DNA from: Blastococcus saxobsidens
GTDB taxonomy: Bacteria > Actinomycetota > Actinomycetes > Mycobacteriales > Geodermatophilaceae
Length of the DNA: 64,000 nucleotides
NCBI RefSeq assembly: GCF_002938435.1
Contig: NZ_POQT01000001.1
Location: 1 to 64,000 of the forward strand
Reading direction: 5' to 3'
The number at the start of each line of letters is the position of its first letter. Position 1 is the stretch's first letter. Below, one piece after another: positions 2,079 to 40,514 of this stretch. A program made the translations under genes and the position numbers. The notes below the pieces were generated by a model. The model made no database searches, was not told where the DNA came from, and saw only the letters and a list, made by a program, of their open reading frames with translations.

Positions 2079-3166
<1,088 letters not shown>

Positions 3167-3170
<4 letters not shown>

Positions 3171-3826
3171 ACGACTGGGACCGCATCGCCCCGCAGCTGG
3201 CCGAGGCCACCTGGGACACGCTCTACATGGTGGGCGTCAGCACGCTGCTCACCGTGCTGATCGGCGTCCCGCTCGGCGTGCTGCTCACCATCACCGCGCC
3301 CGGCGCGCTCTCGCCGAGCCCGCTCGTGCACCGCGTCCTCGGCCTGGTGGTGAACCTCGGACGGTCGCTGCCCTTCATCATCCTGCTGGTCCTCGTCGCC
3401 CCGGTCACCCGCGGCATCGTCGGCACGACCATCGGCTCCACCGCCACGATCGTCCCGCTGACGATCGGCGCCGTCCCGTTCCTGGCCCGGCTGGTCGAGA
3501 CCAGCCTGCGCGAGGTCGGGCACGGCAAGGTCGAGGCGACGCTGGCCATGGGTGCCCGCCGGCGCGACGTCGTCCGCACCGTGCTGCTGCCCGAGGCGCT
3601 GCCGTCGCTGGTCGCCGGGATCACCGTCACCGTCGTCGCCCTCATCAGCTACTCGGCCATGGCCGGCGCCATCGGCGGTGGCGGCCTCGGCGACTTCGCC
3701 ATCCGCTACGGCTACCAGCAGTTCCGCACCGACATCACCGTGGCCACCGTGGTGCTGCTGCTGGTGGTCGTCCAGGCCCTGCAGTGGGCCGGCGACCGCT
3801 GGGCCCGCCGCCTCGCCCACGCCTGA
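3167..3826 (+). CDS. metI: Methionine ABC transporter permease
   Basis: The membrane subunit of the methionine importer (219 aa, close to E. coli MetI at 217). It has about five hydrophobic segments and the permease EAA-type loop in the region GKVEATLAMGARRRDVVRTVLLPEALPSL (read as separate parts EATLAMGA and LLPEALPSL). The GTG start sits inside the metN stop (GTGA at 3167-3170), so translation is probably coupled. It is followed 52 bases later by the binding protein metQ. Confidence 0.94.
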
Positions 3827-4937: not shown

Positions 4938-6644
4938 ATGACACGTCGTCGTACCACCCGAGCGCTCGCTGCCTCCGCGGCCGCGCTCACCGCAGTGACC
5001 TTGTCTGCCTGCGCCTCCAGCGACCGGGACTCCGGCGGCGAGGGCAGCGGCAGCGAGGAGTCCGGGGGCACGCTGGTCTTCGGCGCCGCCGGCGACCCGG
5101 CGATGCTGGACCCCGCGTTCGGCAGCGACGGTGAGACCTTCCGCGTCTCCCGCCAGATCTTCGAGGGTCTCCTGGGCAACGAGCTCGGCGGCACCGACCC
5201 CGTGCCCGAGCTCGCCACCGACTGGGAGGTCAGCGAGGACGGCCTCGAGTACACCTTCGAGCTGCAGGAGGGCGTGCAGTTCCACGACGGCACGGACTTC
5301 AACGCCGAGGCCGTCTGCTTCAACTTCGACCGCTGGTACAACTTCGACGGCCTGGCCACCAGCCCGAGCGCCTCGTACTACTACCAGGCGGTCTTCGGCG
5401 GCTTCGCCAGCACGCCGGACACCCCCAGCATCTACGAGAGCTGCGAGGCGACCGACGAGAACACCGCGGTCATCCGGCTCACCCAGGTGACCTCGAAGTT
5501 CCCCTCCGCCCTGGCGCTGCCGGCCTTCTCCATCCAGAGCCCCACGGCCCTGGAGGAGTACGACGCGGACGACCTGAGCGGCAGCGAGGACGCGCTGACC
5601 TACTCCGAGTACGCCATGGAGCACCCGGTCGGCACCGGGCCCTTCAAGTTCGACAGCTGGGACCGGAGCAACGGCGAGGTCACCATCGTCCGCAACGACG
5701 ACTACTGGGGCGAGAAGGCGAAGCTCGACAAGGTCATCTTCCGCACGATCTCCGACGGGAACACCCGCCGCCAGGAGCTGCAGGCCGGCTCGATCGACGG
5801 CTACGACTTCGTCGCGCCGGCCGACTACGCCACCCTCGAGGACACCGGCGCCCAGGTGCTGGTCCGCGACCCGTTCAACATCCTCTACCTGGGGATCAAC
5901 GGCGGGAACGTGCCCGACTCGGGTGCCAACCCGGCACTGCAGGACGAGCGGGTCCGCCAGGCGATCGCCCACGCGATCGACCGCGAGACGATCGTGAACT
6001 CGCTCCTGCCCGAGGGCGCGGAGGTGGCCACCCAGTTCATGCCGCCGACGGTCGACGGCTGGGCCGAGGACGTCACCACCTACGAGTACGACGTCGAGAA
6101 GGCCAAGTCGCTGCTCGCCGAGGCCGGCGCCACCGGCACGACGCTGCGCTTCTTCTACCCGACCGATGTGAGCCGGCCGTACCTGCCGGACCCGGCCGCC
6201 ATGTTCCAGGTCATCAGCCAGAACCTGACCGACGCCGGCTTCACCGTCCAGCCCACGGCGCTGCCGTGGAACCCGGACTACCTGAACGCCGTGCAGGCGG
6301 GCCAGGCGGACATCCACCTGCTCGGGTGGACCGGTGACTACAACGACGCCTACAACTTCATCGGGACGTTCTTCGCCGAGGCGTCGAACAACCAGGCGTC
6401 GGCCGAGTTCGGGGCGTTCAGCGCCCCGGAGATCTTCGCCGCGCTGGCCGAGGCCGACAGCGAACCCGACCCGGCCAACCGGACGGAGATGTACCAGGAG
6501 GCCAACCGGCTGATCATGGACTACCTGCCGGCTGTCCCGGTCTCGCACTCGCCGCCGGCCCTGGTCGTCTCCGAGCGGGTCCAGGGCCTGGAGCCCAGCC
6601 CGCTCACCGCCGAGGTCTTCTCGACGGTCTCGCTCAACGACTGA
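4938..6644 (+). CDS. ABC transporter substrate-binding lipoprotein, peptide/nickel type (SBP family 5)
   Basis: An extracytoplasmic binding protein of the DppA/OppA class (568 aa). The signal peptide ends in LSAC, lipidated Cys25, followed by a Ser/Gly/Glu linker. SBP_bac_5 features are visible: the start of the mature fold (GGTLVFGAAGDPAMLDP), VPELATDWEVSEDG, and the C-terminal ligand region. Two extra cysteines near residues 130-170 (AVCFNF, YESCEA) may form a disulfide. It heads the importer genes to 10934. A TAGGGT box at 4842-4847 is a weak promoter candidate. The substrate (di/oligopeptide is most likely) cannot be read from the sequence. Confidence 0.9.
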   Translation: MTRRRTTRALAASAAALTAVTLSACASSDRDSGGEGSGSEESGGTLVFGAAGDPAMLDPAFGSDGETFRVSRQIFEGLLGNELGGTDPVPELATDWEVSEDGLEYTFELQEGVQFHDGTDFNAEAVCFNFDRWYNFDGLATSPSASYYYQAVFGGFASTPDTPSIYESCEATDENTAVIRLTQVTSKFPSALALPAFSIQSPTALEEYDADDLSGSEDALTYSEYAMEHPVGTGPFKFDSWDRSNGEVTIVRNDDYWGEKAKLDKVIFRTISDGNTRRQELQAGSIDGYDFVAPADYATLEDTGAQVLVRDPFNILYLGINGGNVPDSGANPALQDERVRQAIAHAIDRETIVNSLLPEGAEVATQFMPPTVDGWAEDVTTYEYDVEKAKSLLAEAGATGTTLRFFYPTDVSRPYLPDPAAMFQVISQNLTDAGFTVQPTALPWNPDYLNAVQAGQADIHLLGWTGDYNDAYNFIGTFFAEASNNQASAEFGAFSAPEIFAALAEADSEPDPANRTEMYQEANRLIMDYLPAVPVSHSPPALVVSERVQGLEPSPLTAEVFSTVSLND

Positions 6645-34147: not shown

Positions 34148-36486
<2,339 letters not shown>

Positions 36487-36491
<5 letters not shown>

Positions 36492-37263
36492 TCCCGGCTG
36501 ATGCCTGGTCGGACTCGCGCTGCTGAGCGGCGGCCTCCTCGTCGGAGGTGCGCTGCTGCGCGGCGGCCTCCTCGTCGGAGGTGCGCTGCTGCGCGGCGGC
36601 CTCCTCGTCCGAGGTGCGCTGCTGCGCGGCGGCCTCCTCGTCGGAGCTGCGCTGCTGCGCGGCGGCCTCCTCGTCGGAGCTGCGCTGCTGCTCGGCGGCC
36701 TCGGCAGAACGCTGACCCTCGCGCTGCGAACGCTCCGGCACCGACGAGTCGTCGGCGTCGTGCTCGGGCTCGGTGTCGCGCGGGGCCCCGGTCGTCCGGG
36801 TCGCCGGGCCGCCGCCGCTCTGCGTGGCTGATGGCGACGGAGGGGCCGACGAGCCGGCCTTCTCTGACGGCGAGGCCTCATCGGCCGTCTCCCGCTCGTC
36901 CTTCCGCGGAGCCACGTCGGGTGTGGGCCGCGGCAGCTCGAACGGCGTCAGTGCGCTGACCAGGTCGGCGACCACGGCCTGCACCGGCGCCGGGAGTGCC
37001 GCCGCCGTCCCGGCCACGACGACGGAGGCCGCGGCCGCGACCAGGCCGGCGCCGGTGCGTGCCGCCCAGCGCCGTCGCTGCCCGGCCGGACGCCGGAACG
37101 GCACCACGGTCGGCTCGAAGCCCCGGGCGAGCAGATCAGCGAGGGCCGCGCTCGGCGGTGGAGCCGGTCCGTCGGCCAGCGTCGCGATGAGGGCGACGGC
37201 CCGGTGCAGGTCCGGGTCGGCGGCCGCGCCGTCGAGGACGGTGCGTGCATTTCGGCCGGTCAC
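36487..37263 (-). CDS. Membrane protein with C-terminal SDEEAAAQQRT repeats, coupled to an ECF sigma factor
   Basis: No family recognised. 258 aa: a cytoplasmic N-terminal domain of about 65 residues (DPDLHRAVALIATLADG), a likely transmembrane helix at about 71-95 (TGAGLVAAAASVVVAGTAAAL), a Pro/Ser-rich linker, then five perfect 11-residue units SDEEAAAQQRx at about 195-250 (bases 36514-36678) and a degenerate one before them. It starts inside the stop of the sigma gene (GTGA), where anti-sigma factors usually lie, but the HxxxCxxC zinc motif of common anti-sigmas is absent. An anti-sigma or sensor role is an inference from position. Confidence 0.7.
36514..36678 (-). repeat. 33-bp tandem repeats (five units) in the sigma-linked membrane protein gene
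   Basis: Five in-frame 33-base units, each encoding SDEEAAAQQR plus S, T or E, with near-identical DNA. An 11-residue period is a hendecad, expected to give a right-handed coiled coil. The same units occur in the neighbouring gene at 37914-38078. Confidence 0.85.
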
Positions 37264-37838
37264 GGGGTCACCGGTGCCAGGCCGAAGGAGAAGCCGTCGT
37301 GGATCTGCGCGCGCAGCGCCAGCAGGGCACGGCGCTGGAGCTGCTTGACGGCGCCTGCGCTGCGGCCCACGGCCGCGGCGGTCTGCTCGACGCTCAGGTC
37401 GGCGACCACCCGCAGGAGCAGGACGTCCCGCTGGTCCGCCGGCAGCTCGTCGAGCAGGGCGCGGATCTCGGCGGTGCGGATCCGGTCGACGGCCTCGTCC
37501 TCGGGAGAGGGCGCCGTCCGGTCGTCCTGCCAGTCCTCGTAGGAGACGGCGTTCCCTCGGCGGGACTGCCGGCGGAGGTCGTCGACGAGGCGCGCATGGG
37601 CCACGGAGAAGACGAGGGTGCGCAGACCTGCGGCGCCGCCGGTCACGGTGGCCAGCTTGGAGAACACGGTCAGGAACACCTCGCTCGTCAGGTCATCGGG
37701 CTCGCTCGCGCCCCGGGCACTCAGGTAGCCGTGCACTCGAGGGGCCAGCTGCTCGTACACCTCTCGCAGGGCTTCCGGCCGGCCGGCCTGGGCCGCCGCG
37801 AGGGCATCGTCGAGCCCCGCGGGATCGGTCGGTGGCAT
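37260..37838 (-). CDS. ECF-type RNA polymerase sigma factor
   Basis: A 192-residue sigma-70 family protein with only regions 2 and 4. Region 2 at about residues 20-90 (LYEQLAPRVHGYLSARG-type start, then DDLTSEVFLTVFSKL and LVFSVAHARLVDDLRRQ); region 4 at about 128-180 (LPADQRDVLLLRVVADLSVEQTAAAVG, then SAGAVKQLQRRALLALR). The usual RAWLFxIARN is replaced by LRTLVFSVAHA. ATG at 37838. Its stop overlaps the following membrane protein gene, and the upstream gene encodes a second protein with the same repeats, so the three probably form one system. Confidence 0.9.
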   Translation of the reverse strand: MPPTDPAGLDDALAAAQAGRPEALREVYEQLAPRVHGYLSARGASEPDDLTSEVFLTVFSKLATVTGGAAGLRTLVFSVAHARLVDDLRRQSRRGNAVSYEDWQDDRTAPSPEDEAVDRIRTAEIRALLDELPADQRDVLLLRVVADLSVEQTAAAVGRSAGAVKQLQRRALLALRAQIHDGFSFGLAPVTP

Positions 37839-37898
37839 GCGAGTCCTATCGGCACGAGGGCGGGCGGACTGGAGGCCAGTCCGCCCGCCCTGTGGTGG

Positions 37899-38513
37899 TC
37901 AGCCGTTGTCGGAGATGCGCTGGGCCTCGGCGGACTCCTCGTCGGAGGTGCGCTGCTGCGCGGCGGCCTCCTCGTCGGAGGTGCGCTGCTGCTCGACGGC
38001 CTCCTCGTCGGAGGTGCGCTGGGCCTCGGCGGACTCCTCGTCGGAGGTGCGCTGCTGCGCGGCGGCCTCCTCGTCGGACTCGCGCTGAGCCTCGGCGGCC
38101 TCCTCGGCGGCCTCGCGGGCACCCTCCTCGGCCTCCTCGGCGGCCTCACGGGCCTCCTCCGCGGCCTCCTCCGCGGCTTCCTCCGCAGCCTCGAGCGCCT
38201 CCTGGGCCTCGTCCGCGGCCTTCTCCCGGGCCTCGTAGAGCCCGTCCGCGGCGCCGTCCGCGTCCGGTCCGGTGCTGTCGTCCTCGGTGACGTCGTCCGC
38301 GGAGAGCTCGGAGTCCAGCAGCGAGTCGACCTGGCTGTCGTCCTCGACCACCACGGCGGGCTCGTCGCCCGGCAGGATCTCGTCGAGGGGCACCACCCCG
38401 GTGGCGCCGGCGGTGCCGATTGCCGCGGCCGAGACGACCCCCGCGACGGCGACCTTGGCGGTCACGGTGGCGGCGCCGGCCTTGGCCAGCAGGAGGGGGA
38501 GGAGGTTCAGCAT
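37899..38513 (-). CDS. Exported or anchored Glu/Ala-rich coiled-coil protein with SDEEAAAQQRT repeats
   Basis: No family recognised. 204 aa: a hydrophobic N-terminus (about residues 1-40, LLPLLLAKAGAATVTAKVAVAGVVSA in parts) acting as signal or anchor, an acidic Asp/Ser-rich spacer (about 41-88), an uncharged-poor Glu/Ala/Arg helix (about 90-140), and five 11-residue units (SDEEAAAQQRT, SDEESAEAQRT and variants) at about 145-200. ATG at 38513 with GGAAGG 7 bases upstream. It lies 60 bases before the sigma gene on the same strand. The shared repeats suggest it pairs with the membrane protein at 36487-37263 by coiled coil. Confidence 0.7.
   Translation of the reverse strand: MLNLLPLLLAKAGAATVTAKVAVAGVVSAAAIGTAGATGVVPLDEILPGDEPAVVVEDDSQVDSLLDSELSADDVTEDDSTGPDADGAADGLYEAREKAADEAQEALEAAEEAAEEAAEEAREAAEEAEEGAREAAEEAAEAQRESDEEAAAQQRTSDEESAEAQRTSDEEAVEQQRTSDEEAAAQQRTSDEESAEAQRISDNG
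37914..38078 (-). repeat. 33-bp tandem repeats (five units) in the coiled-coil protein gene
   Basis: Five 33-base units encoding SDEEAAAQQRT, SDEESAEAQRT, SDEEAVEQQRT, SDEEAAAQQRT and SDEESAEAQRI. The protein sequence alternates between two unit types, unlike the uniform set at 36514-36678, and the DNA is highly similar to those units. Confidence 0.85.
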
Positions 38514-38693
38514 GGTGGTGCCTTCCGTTCGGTAGCCCCGATGCCCCTGAGGGGCCGGTTGCTTTGCTGACTGCCGTTGCCGGCAGGTCGCCCTTGTCGT
38601 GGGTTGACGTTGCTGTGATCGATCGGAGCCGCCGCAGGGTTACGCGCTACCGCCGGCCTCCCTCGATGGGGGGAGAGGCGAAAGCGCCCGGGG

Positions 38694-40514
38694 TCAGGGC
38701 CGCACGTGGCGCAGGGCGAAGTCCAGCGCGACCTCGACCTGCCGGATGGTCTCCTCGATGACCAGCGACCCGTGGCCGGCGTCGAACCGGTAGACCTCGT
38801 GCTCCTTGCCCAGCTCCTCGAGCCGGCCGAGGTAGTTGTCGATCTGCCGGATGGGGCAGCGCGGGTCGTTCGCGCCGGCCACCACGAGCACCGGCGCGGC
38901 GACGGCGTCGGCGTAGGTGATCGGGGAGGACCGCACGTACACGTCCCGCACCTCCGCCGGTGAGCCGCCGAACAGCGCCCGGTCGTAGGCCCGCAGCCCC
39001 TCCATCTCGTCCTCGTAGGCGGCCAGGTAGTCGGCCACCGGCACCTCGGCGATGCCGGCCGTCCAGCGCTCCGGCTGGGTGCCCAGTCCGAGCAGCGTGA
39101 GGAACCCGCCCCACGAACCGCCGGTCAGCAGCGTGCGCCGCGGGTCGACGACGCCCTCGGCGACCAGCGCATCGTGGACCGCGCCGATGTCCTCGAGCTC
39201 GGTGAGCCCCGGCCGGCCGGTGAGCGCGTCCCGCCAGGCCGACCCGTAGCCGGTCGAGCCGCGGTAGTTCACGTGCACCACCGCGTACCCGGCGTCCACG
39301 TAGGCCGCGCGGCGGGCGCGGTAGGAGTCGTCGTCGGCCGCCTCCGGGCCGCCGTGCACGAGGAACGCCGTGGCGAACGGTCCGGCCGGCCCACCCCGGC
39401 CGGCGGGCCGGACGAGCAGCGCGTGGATGTCCCCACCGGGGCCGGGCACCCAGCGGTCCTCCACCGGGTAGGCCGCCGGCGGGTCCTCGTCGGCGACGGA
39501 CAGGACCACCGGCCCGTCCGCGCGGCGGATCACCGGCGGCAGCTCGGAGTTCGACCAGGCCAGCTCGACGGTGCCGTCGGGGCGCGCGGTGGCGCCCCGG
39601 ACGACGCCCGGCGGCGTGTCCAGCTTCTCCAGCACACCGGTCGCGAGGTCGTAGCGGTACAGCTCCGTGCGGGCGGCGTGGTCGTGCCCGACCAGCAGCG
39701 CCGTGCCGTCGGGGTACCAGCCGGCCGTCACGTCACCGGGCAGGTCGAGGACGAGCTCGGTCTCGGTGCCGGCCTCGACGTCCCAGATCAGCAGCTCCTC
39801 CCGGCCGCGCCGCTCGTGGCCGACGAGGAGCCGGCGGTCACCGGGGAGCGGGGCGAACTCCAGCGCGTGCAGGCCGAGCCCCTCGCCGTCCCACTTCTCC
39901 GTGACGACCGCGGGGGAGTCCTCGGTGGTGCCGGCCGTGCGCAGCACGCGCAACGCGGGGTAGCGCGGATCGCCGTGCTCGGAGTGCGAGACGACCAGCA
40001 GCTCGTCGTCCCGGGTGAGGGCGTCGACGGACGCCGGGTCGGCGTGCCGGTAGATCACCCGGGGCGTCCCGCCGTGCGGCGCCAGCCACAGCTCGCTGCC
40101 GTCGTCGGTGCTCCGCCCGATCGCGACGAGCGAGCGGCCGACCTCCAGCCCCGCCGGGTAGGCCGCTCCCACCTCGGGGACGGCCACGGTGTCCTCGCCG
40201 CCGGGGAACGGCTGGGTCATCCAGACGCCGAACTCGTCGCCGTCGGTGTCGGCGAACCACCAGATGGTCCCGCCGTCCGGGCTGAGGGTGCTGATCAGCG
40301 TGCCGTTGGGTCGGTCGGTCACCGGCCGGTGCTCGTCGGTCGAGCGGTCCCAGGCGTACTGCTCGACGACGCCGCTGACGTCGGAGGAGTAGACGTTCCG
40401 GTGCGGCGCCTCCTCGGCCCAGTCCGGCAGCGACACCCGGGGTGCGCGGAACCGCGCCTGCCAGCGGGCGGTGACCGCGAGGGGGAGTGCGGGGACGGTG
40501 CTCGGGTCGCTCAC
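38694..40514 (-). CDS. S9 family prolyl oligopeptidase-like peptidase
   Basis: A 606-residue serine peptidase. The N-terminal about 330 residues form a beta-propeller-like region with repeated short blades, and the C-terminal alpha/beta-hydrolase domain follows. Catalytic residues: Ser in LLTGGSWGGFLTLLG, Asp in VVAGANDPRCP and His in RFDAGHGSLV. No signal peptide, so probably cytosolic, cutting short peptides or acylated amino acids. GTG start at 40514 with a GGGGGAAG stretch upstream. It ends a run of minus-strand genes from 42971. Confidence 0.9.
   Translation of the reverse strand: MSDPSTVPALPLAVTARWQARFRAPRVSLPDWAEEAPHRNVYSSDVSGVVEQYAWDRSTDEHRPVTDRPNGTLISTLSPDGGTIWWFADTDGDEFGVWMTQPFPGGEDTVAVPEVGAAYPAGLEVGRSLVAIGRSTDDGSELWLAPHGGTPRVIYRHADPASVDALTRDDELLVVSHSEHGDPRYPALRVLRTAGTTEDSPAVVTEKWDGEGLGLHALEFAPLPGDRRLLVGHERRGREELLIWDVEAGTETELVLDLPGDVTAGWYPDGTALLVGHDHAARTELYRYDLATGVLEKLDTPPGVVRGATARPDGTVELAWSNSELPPVIRRADGPVVLSVADEDPPAAYPVEDRWVPGPGGDIHALLVRPAGRGGPAGPFATAFLVHGGPEAADDDSYRARRAAYVDAGYAVVHVNYRGSTGYGSAWRDALTGRPGLTELEDIGAVHDALVAEGVVDPRRTLLTGGSWGGFLTLLGLGTQPERWTAGIAEVPVADYLAAYEDEMEGLRAYDRALFGGSPAEVRDVYVRSSPITYADAVAAPVLVVAGANDPRCPIRQIDNYLGRLEELGKEHEVYRFDAGHGSLVIEETIRQVEVALDFALRHVRP

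Follow-up and report, generated by a model that had tools for sequence, protein, structure and literature searches.

An ECF sigma factor gene between two membrane protein genes

Within a stretch of 64 kb from the genome of Blastococcus saxobsidens (hereafter the window), calls of open reading frames (ORFs) place three genes in a row on the minus strand, encoding a membrane-anchored protein that we term A, a sigma factor of the extracytoplasmic function (ECF) type and a second membrane protein, B. All features of this cassette that are given with coordinates below lie on the minus strand. Protein A (204 aa, 37899..38513) consists of a short N-terminus, a membrane segment and an external Glu/Ala-rich tail, and is built as a twin of B that lacks B's head. 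An earlier note on this DNA had proposed that shared 11-residue repeats let A and B contact one another outside the membrane and thereby control the sigma factor. Its gene positions, its gene order and its count of five repeat units per protein were borne out by our ORF and repeat calls. It made no mention of the promoter and riboswitch before A or of the hairpin that separates A from sigma, and it did not note that the membrane segments of A and B are homologous.

The sigma factor (192 aa, 37260..37838) passes the Pfam cut-offs for Sigma70_r2 (26 bits, cut-off 24) and Sigma70_r4_2 (46.5 bits, cut-off 25.7), and other sigma-70 regions are unmatched; with only regions 2 and 4 above the curated cut-offs, it is an ECF sigma factor. 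The nearest models in NCBIfam are ShbA NF007230, with 109.6 bits under a cut-off of 209, which leaves the protein outside the ShbA/SigD subfamily, and the BldN family TIGR02952, with 81.7 bits under a cut-off of 206.45. Among its relatives of solved structure are region 4 of a SigD and 6dxo, the latter being the BldN complex. The nearest named relative is that of Blastococcus sp. DSM 46786 (78%), which has the same cassette (L039); in the window's family, 60 of 112 genomes have a match at E <= 1e-20. The sigma family is widespread; in this analysis it was matched to no described ECF family, though its group may already carry a number.

For comparison we used a chosen set of 133 loci, of which 117 are distinct by sigma sequence. 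These comprise 30 loci from a sigma search of the family genomes, 43 of 80 from a wider sigma search and 60 picked stretches; loci L082-L118, with 21-49% identity and for the most part from other phyla, were left out. In 109 of the 117 distinct loci, the gene directly after sigma encodes a B-like protein, which joins a cytoplasmic head and a membrane segment to a tail of low complexity. This count comes from an automated call with errors in either sense: L133 was included although B is lacking there, and L048, L155 and L157 were overlooked despite having B. Protein A was recognised by reading the ORFs upstream of sigma, and the 17 A loci found among the 117 are a lower bound; an automated pick of A overlooked one of them (P. 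yzui). Sigma is at least 60% identical in 12 distinct loci, of which 10 carry A, L044 begins at a contig end and L133 has neither A nor B, so that A is present in 10 of the 11 such loci with a readable upstream region. The three-gene arrangement, which the earlier note had suggested looking for in other actinobacteria, is accordingly the rule among close relatives of the sigma factor, whereas in the wider set A was found in a minority of loci, so that the refuting condition named in the note (homologs in which the three genes do not occur together) holds by half.

Protein B (258 aa, 36487..37263) is very probably an anti-sigma factor, judging from its position after sigma, the overlap of its GTG start with the sigma stop (four shared bases in the window) and the promoter described below. 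Its cytoplasmic domain (37114..37263) has three predicted helices (residues 3-10, 17-31 and 39-47) and the motif PxPSAALAxLLxxG, followed by a membrane segment at 37009..37065 (residues 67-85). The helices, with a membrane helix after them, are those of a structure model (predicted local distance difference test score (pLDDT) 72, predicted template modelling score (pTM) 0.34). The earlier note was right to place B in the position of an anti-sigma factor, as the 109 loci and the promoter motif at the sigma/B junction (58 strict and 94 relaxed copies in 116 loci) illustrate. It was also correct that B lacks a zinc-binding anti-sigma motif: Cys is absent from B, and with it the class I motif Hx3Cx2C. 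Class I anti-sigma domains without zinc exist (PMC7406223); what speaks against one in B is the lack of Pfam hits. Matches to tolA and to phage-coat models were dismissed as products of low complexity or of the membrane segment.

The relation of A to B emerged from a profile built on the membrane regions of 88 B proteins, drawn exclusively from loci without A. This profile was searched against 474 targets: the N-termini of the 17 A proteins, 85 shuffled versions of A and, as decoys, 372 ORFs from the same loci that contain a hydrophobic stretch. The A proteins took ranks 1-15, 17 and 23. The A of the window was found at E 1.1e-7, and its membrane segment (38391..38465, ends approximate) is homologous to that of B. 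Overall, 12 of the 17 A proteins scored at E <= 0.0023 and those of G689, G167 and G479 at 0.02-0.05; those of G256 and G246 were indistinguishable from decoys. Because a B profile made from loci without A finds the A of the window and most of the others, we regard A, at the sequence level, as B minus its head. When residues 1-71 of A were searched against the 112 family genomes, the three true A proteins and six weak matches (E 0.002-0.009) were returned, and three of the latter (G108, G039:C39 and G110) fall at the B position beside sigma. Pfam gave no family at E <= 1 for the A of the window, the late embryogenesis abundant (LEA) models included, and across seven A members the sole domain match was a low-complexity one in a single member.

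Promoter motif, aptamer and hairpin

Upstream of A lies the sequence CGTAACC-N16-CGAT (38618..38644), a promoter motif of the sigmaD-like ECF type. All 17 A loci have CGTAMCC-N16-CGAT before A, invariably with N16 spacing, and these loci had been defined earlier than the motif search. In the 1.4 kb upstream of sigma, with spacings of N14-18 permitted, it occurs in 8 of the 100 loci without A (two with N15; one of the eight is L057), and a reversed-motif control in 0 of 117. The motif recurs at the junction of sigma and B, in 58 of 116 loci under a strict and 94 of 116 under a relaxed definition, compared to none of 232 control windows placed within sigma; a looser junction scan gave 59 of 116 loci and one control. 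Among the 17 A loci, a junction copy is present in nine (strict) or 12 (relaxed). Microbacteriaceae and Jiangella are among the groups with the junction promoter, Blastococcus among those with the A promoter. The motif resembles the SigD consensus of C. glutamicum, with GTAAC(A/G) at -35 and GAT at -10 (PMC6338062). From this placement we infer that the sigma factor would recognise the motif and that A and B would be its targets.

Throughout the 4.5 Mb genome of the window, CGTAACC-N16-CGAT is unique to the site before A, and spacings of 14, 17 or 18 add five further sites. A regulon scan with CGTAMCC-N16-CGAT found four sites, including A, C7, C2:173909 and C4:54454. The C7 copy is identical in eight genomes of the genus that have no sigma match; it was therefore taken as coding and rejected as a regulon target. 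Within the window, a CGTAACC...CGAT pair with N14 spacing lies inside an aspartokinase-like ORF (34394-34418) and is probably coding as well.

The 5' leader of A contains a riboswitch aptamer for cyclic dimeric guanosine monophosphate (c-di-GMP), of the c-di-GMP-I class (38528..38602; RF01051, 42.5 bits, gathering score 35). It starts 15 bases past the CGAT of the promoter and ends 14 bases before the start of A; a Shine-Dalgarno-like GGAAGG (38521..38526) follows one base past it. Between aptamer and start codon, no expression platform was recognised. The covariance model also accepts the leader of G002 (40.6 bits). As to the class, RF03167 (c-di-GMP-I-GGC) scored 42.1 bits under its gathering score of 59, and RF01051 was preferred; a match to the ASdes small RNA (18.4 bits, gathering score 40) was put down to chance. 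Under strict filters, which missed G005, RF01051 was found in 2 of 108 family genomes, those of the window and G002, each time before A, and 14 control genomes gave a signal in C. glutamicum only, under the cut-off. When 11 loci were scanned at E <= 1, RF01051 came up in the G002 locus (L170) alone, and the leaders of G167 and G160 align with parts of the riboswitch. The riboswitch scans covered A loci other than G246, G689, G185b, G144 and P. yzui. Because the results are patchy among A loci, we regard the riboswitch as a trait of part of the A clade. The genome of the window encodes 38 GGDEF domains, compared to the one c-di-GMP-I riboswitch found.

Between A and sigma lies a terminator- or attenuator-like hairpin with a 16-bp stem and no T run (37857..37891; minimum free energy -40.2 kcal/mol, z -7.1). 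A hairpin after A, with z <= -2 over 110 nt, occurs in 14 of 17 A loci, the exceptions being G209, G479 and P. yzui, and a T run is missing behind most of them. If transcription terminates there, as the stem suggests, A would be the main product.

Repeats and tails of A and B

In the window, the tails of both proteins carry five 11-residue units, at 37914..38078 in A and 36514..36678 in B, as identified by tandem-array and unit comparison. The SDEEAAAQQRT-like (SDxx) units occupy residues 146-200 of A and 196-250 of B, and the underlying arrays comprise 6.2 copies of a 33-bp unit with 84% match in A (37908-38110) and 5.6 copies with 96% match in B (36517-36702). The best identities of A units to B units are 33, 28, 31, 33 and 27 of 33 nt, two A units thus matching a B unit at all 33 bases. 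Since the longest exact A/B match spans 58 bp in the window as compared to 8-16 bp in 16 other A loci, the sharing is at the DNA level and beyond chance, which for the window rules out a chance or convergent origin of the identical repeats. As read from the DNA, these identical units represent recent exchange. Only in the window do both partners have a strong 11-residue period; it is weak in G246, and the other loci have other periods or none. Right-handed 11-residue coiled coils, as envisaged in the earlier note, were therefore rejected as a conserved principle.

We then compared the tails as such in the 14 of 17 A loci that have a full B tail, dropping G238, G160 (contig end) and G002 (short B). 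In Smith-Waterman alignments against 105 B tails, the cognate tail ranked 1 for the window, G120 and P. yzui, 2 for G209 and G256, 3 for G005, 5 for G479, 10 for G246, 19 for G167 and 22 for G689. Permuting partners among the 14 pairs gave p 5e-5, the lowest value that 20,000 shuffles allow, with relatedness controlled only roughly; nine hand-picked representatives likewise gave p 5e-5. When the pairs were divided by sigma identity, p was 4.5e-4 for the seven at or above 60% and 0.007 for the remaining seven, and the cognate was the best partner for 6 of 9 representatives and for 3 of 7 and 4 of 7 pairs in these two groups. Measured against composition shuffles, z was 15 in the window and 0.7-3.7 elsewhere, so composition drives much of the tail match. 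Two A tails clearly preferred their own B over a paralogous B in the same genome (138 v 56 in G005, 124 v 74 in G246). Tail types common to A and B include an Asp/Ser-rich one in G120, EPGDDR in G256 and a Glu/Ala-rich one in G209. In G185, G144 and G133, A bears an FGxxVxxxAxxGGVxGxxI-like module that is present in B of other genera. An external module FGxxVSxxAxxGxVxGxxVSxxAR was also noted in B proteins of Geodermatophilaceae and in A of L144, L146, L147 and L148. In sum, the tails of A and B, compared as sequences, match in type within loci, with one clade excepted. Of the proposal that A and B are linked partners, what stands is the membrane homology and this tail matching, whereas the 11-residue repeats and their handedness are not conserved.

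As regards its surroundings, the cassette (36462-38694) sits in a 2.2-kb gap between the convergent genes for asd and an S9 peptidase. In the 19 genomes of the genus that were seen to have the peptidase next to asd, this gap measures 23-151 bp in 12, 466-586 bp in six and 1281 bp in one; because it differs across the genus, the cassette occupies a variable site. Several relatives depart from the usual arrangement. L133 (G117) has a lone sigma, 63% identical (oriented 3047-3600), without A or B and with its end abutting a tRNA-like sequence. L170 (G002), a 3.7-kb contig, has a sigma reading frame broken in two and a B that stops early without a long tail, and so we read this locus as decayed or misassembled. 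In L057, a Nocardioides metagenome-assembled genome (MAG), the A slot behind the same promoter holds an exported-looking acidic protein with calcium-repeat-like D-x-D-x-D-G motifs (1477-2430). L167 has an acidic, exported-looking D-x-D-x-D-G protein in that slot (1924-2895) and, 212 bp ahead of its sigma match, no more than a weaker site of the CGTAGC type. Long GC-rich palindromes flank the cassette on both sides in L130 (G120; 1878-1945 and 5718-5783); they match microRNA families under the cut-off and have the appearance of elements of the repetitive extragenic palindrome type.

A possible circuit, its rivals and known systems

We consider the cassette to be an autoregulated sigma/anti-sigma circuit in which A, gated by c-di-GMP, competes with B for an outside partner or protease, and give this reading a probability of roughly 0.45. 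The three-helix cytoplasmic domain of B would bind the ECF sigma factor and tether it at the membrane, while its long external tail would respond to some condition at the envelope or surface. Sigma would be released once B is lost, for which regulated proteolysis is the most likely route. Free sigma would then transcribe from CGTAMCC-N16-CGAT, which stands before A only in the window, before B in many relatives and before both in some. Because the aptamer in the A leader stops one base before the ribosome site, production of A would require both active sigma and the right c-di-GMP state, and the hairpin past A would hold transcription of sigma and B under the level of A. Since A displays the same anchor and tail outside as B, it could compete with B for the external partner or a site-1 protease, or pair with B. 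This action of A on B would close a feedback loop, most likely a negative one.

A number of results weigh against this circuit. The head of B gave no convincing anti-sigma domain match in Pfam and nothing among solved structures by sequence, and a fold search with the B model, a weak query (pLDDT 72, pTM 0.34), found nothing either. The NCBIfam model 'anti-sigma factor' NF052375 matched 5 of 24 B heads at E <= 0.1 (best 0.0019), far under its 100-bit cut-off, and none of ten full-length B proteins at E <= 0.05. As to the riboswitch, there was no match at E <= 1 in G209, G120, G256, G479, G185a or G133, and no Rfam match in the leaders of G167 and G160; the leaders of G005 (RF03167, 31.8 bits, gathering score 59, E 3.6e-6) and G238 (RF01051, 32.2 bits, gathering score 35, E 4.7e-5) stay under the cut-offs. 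The junction motif, strict and relaxed, is absent in G005, G002, G209 and G689 and in the window itself. Tail matching is likewise incomplete: cognate ranks of 31, 46, 60 and 72 of 105 for G185a, G185b, G144 and G133 amount to no match; the two G185 A proteins have little or no preference for their own over the paralogous B (81 v 65 and 68 v 67); in only six of all 14 pairs does the cognate come out as the best partner; and composition alone gives a weaker signal (median cognate rank 28 of 105, sum-rank p 0.0015).

The role of A in the circuit could take a more specific form, or A could serve another purpose altogether. Tentatively, A may be a headless anti-sigma decoy, with a sigma and c-di-GMP AND gate yielding abundant A that titrates B's protease or ligand, so that the second messenger would set the gain. 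If so, the lineage-specific matching of A and B tails would reflect co-evolution of decoy and sensor. More doubtful is that A acts as the working surface protein of the regulon while the B tail senses the same substrate or state, with no competition between them. The promoter-proximal place of A, with a hairpin behind it in 14 of 17 loci, would probably make it the most expressed product, and the A and B tails match by type. The Nocardioides MAG L057, where another acidic repeat protein, probably exported, takes the A slot behind the promoter, fits as well, as does a precedent in PMC4711584: RsgI6 carries a GH10 domain, and GH10 xylanases are under the control of sigmaI6. An effector has no need, however, of the membrane segment that A shares with B, and A has no recognised domain save the low-complexity match in one of seven members.

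Direct contact of A and B via their external repeats, with its loss under envelope stress freeing sigma and A serving as positive co-receptor or clamp, is in our view unlikely. The identical repeats and the matched tail types across clades would suit it, and the shared membrane segment could dimerise too; against this, the 11-residue period is not conserved, the tails of G185a/b, G144 and G133 are unmatched, and 100 of the 117 distinct loci yielded no A (the A count being a lower bound). Moreover, the last 100 residues of the window tails carry net charges of -29 and -17, and direct pairing of two acidic tails is disfavoured. The least probable account, to which we give little weight, is that tail likeness results from DNA exchange and slippage of GC-rich repeats, A being neutral or a protective LEA-like protein without regulatory function. 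The 58-bp exact match and the 96% uniform array speak for such processes in the window, and outside it the match is largely one of composition (z 0.7-3.7). Elsewhere, however, exact A/B matches do not exceed 16 bp though the tails match in type, the paralogous B of the same genome is clearly worse in two of four tests, and a Pfam LEA match is absent. Exchange and slippage also leave the promoter and the membrane-segment homology unexplained.

The proposed circuit bears on how bacteria read their envelope, for which sigma/anti-sigma pairs, some with long disordered anti-sigma tails, are a main route. A natural protein with tail and anchor but no head, tracking the B tail across lineages, would be a tool for finding the partner of that tail. 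If the riboswitch works, c-di-GMP would reach an ECF sigma circuit via the mRNA of the inhibitor's twin. CGTAMCC-N16-CGAT, in turn, should make the targets of a widespread sigma family predictable.

A search of the open-licence literature in PubMed Central turned up neither this cassette nor an anti-sigma twin without a head, and no ECF operon with a c-di-GMP riboswitch. To that extent the statement of the earlier note that no such system had been described holds; it was too strong for a sigma factor with a non-zinc anti-sigma factor, of which RsdA and RsbN are examples. The SigD-RsdA pair of Mycobacteriales (C. glutamicum and M. tuberculosis) likewise joins an ECF sigma factor of the ShbA/SigD kind to a membrane anti-sigma factor, and RsdA is not known to have a zinc motif. 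Pfam has an RsdA sigma-binding domain, which was not among the 16 families matched at E <= 1 by 24 B heads; in having no RsdA match in any of them, B differs from this system. The disordered external domain of RsdA, about 160 aa long and cut by MarP and then Rip1, recalls the external tail of B (PMC11175481), and the accessible portions of the SigD-RsdA papers mention neither a headless twin nor a riboswitch. BldN-RsbN of Streptomyces is a second system for comparison: the BldN family gives the second-best NCBIfam model of our sigma factor, and RsbN is a membrane-anchored class III anti-sigma factor with three helices (PMC7406223 and PMC8103513), the number predicted for the B head, though the latter gives neither a sequence nor a fold match, the B model being weak. 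In SigI-RsgI of Clostridium thermocellum, the external anti-sigma part resembles modules of the sigma targets (PMC4711584); we saw no relation to our cassette, and RsgI has structured binding modules as opposed to the low-complexity tails found here. The WhiG-(c-di-GMP)-RsiG complex also links c-di-GMP to an actinobacterial sigma/anti-sigma pair, yet there the ligand arms the anti-sigma protein (PMC8325347), whereas here the target of c-di-GMP would be the mRNA for a headless twin. Compared with c-di-GMP-I (GEMM) riboswitches in general, to which the aptamer belongs by its RF01051 score above the gathering threshold, the present one is linked to an anti-sigma-like gene and lies behind an ECF-type promoter.

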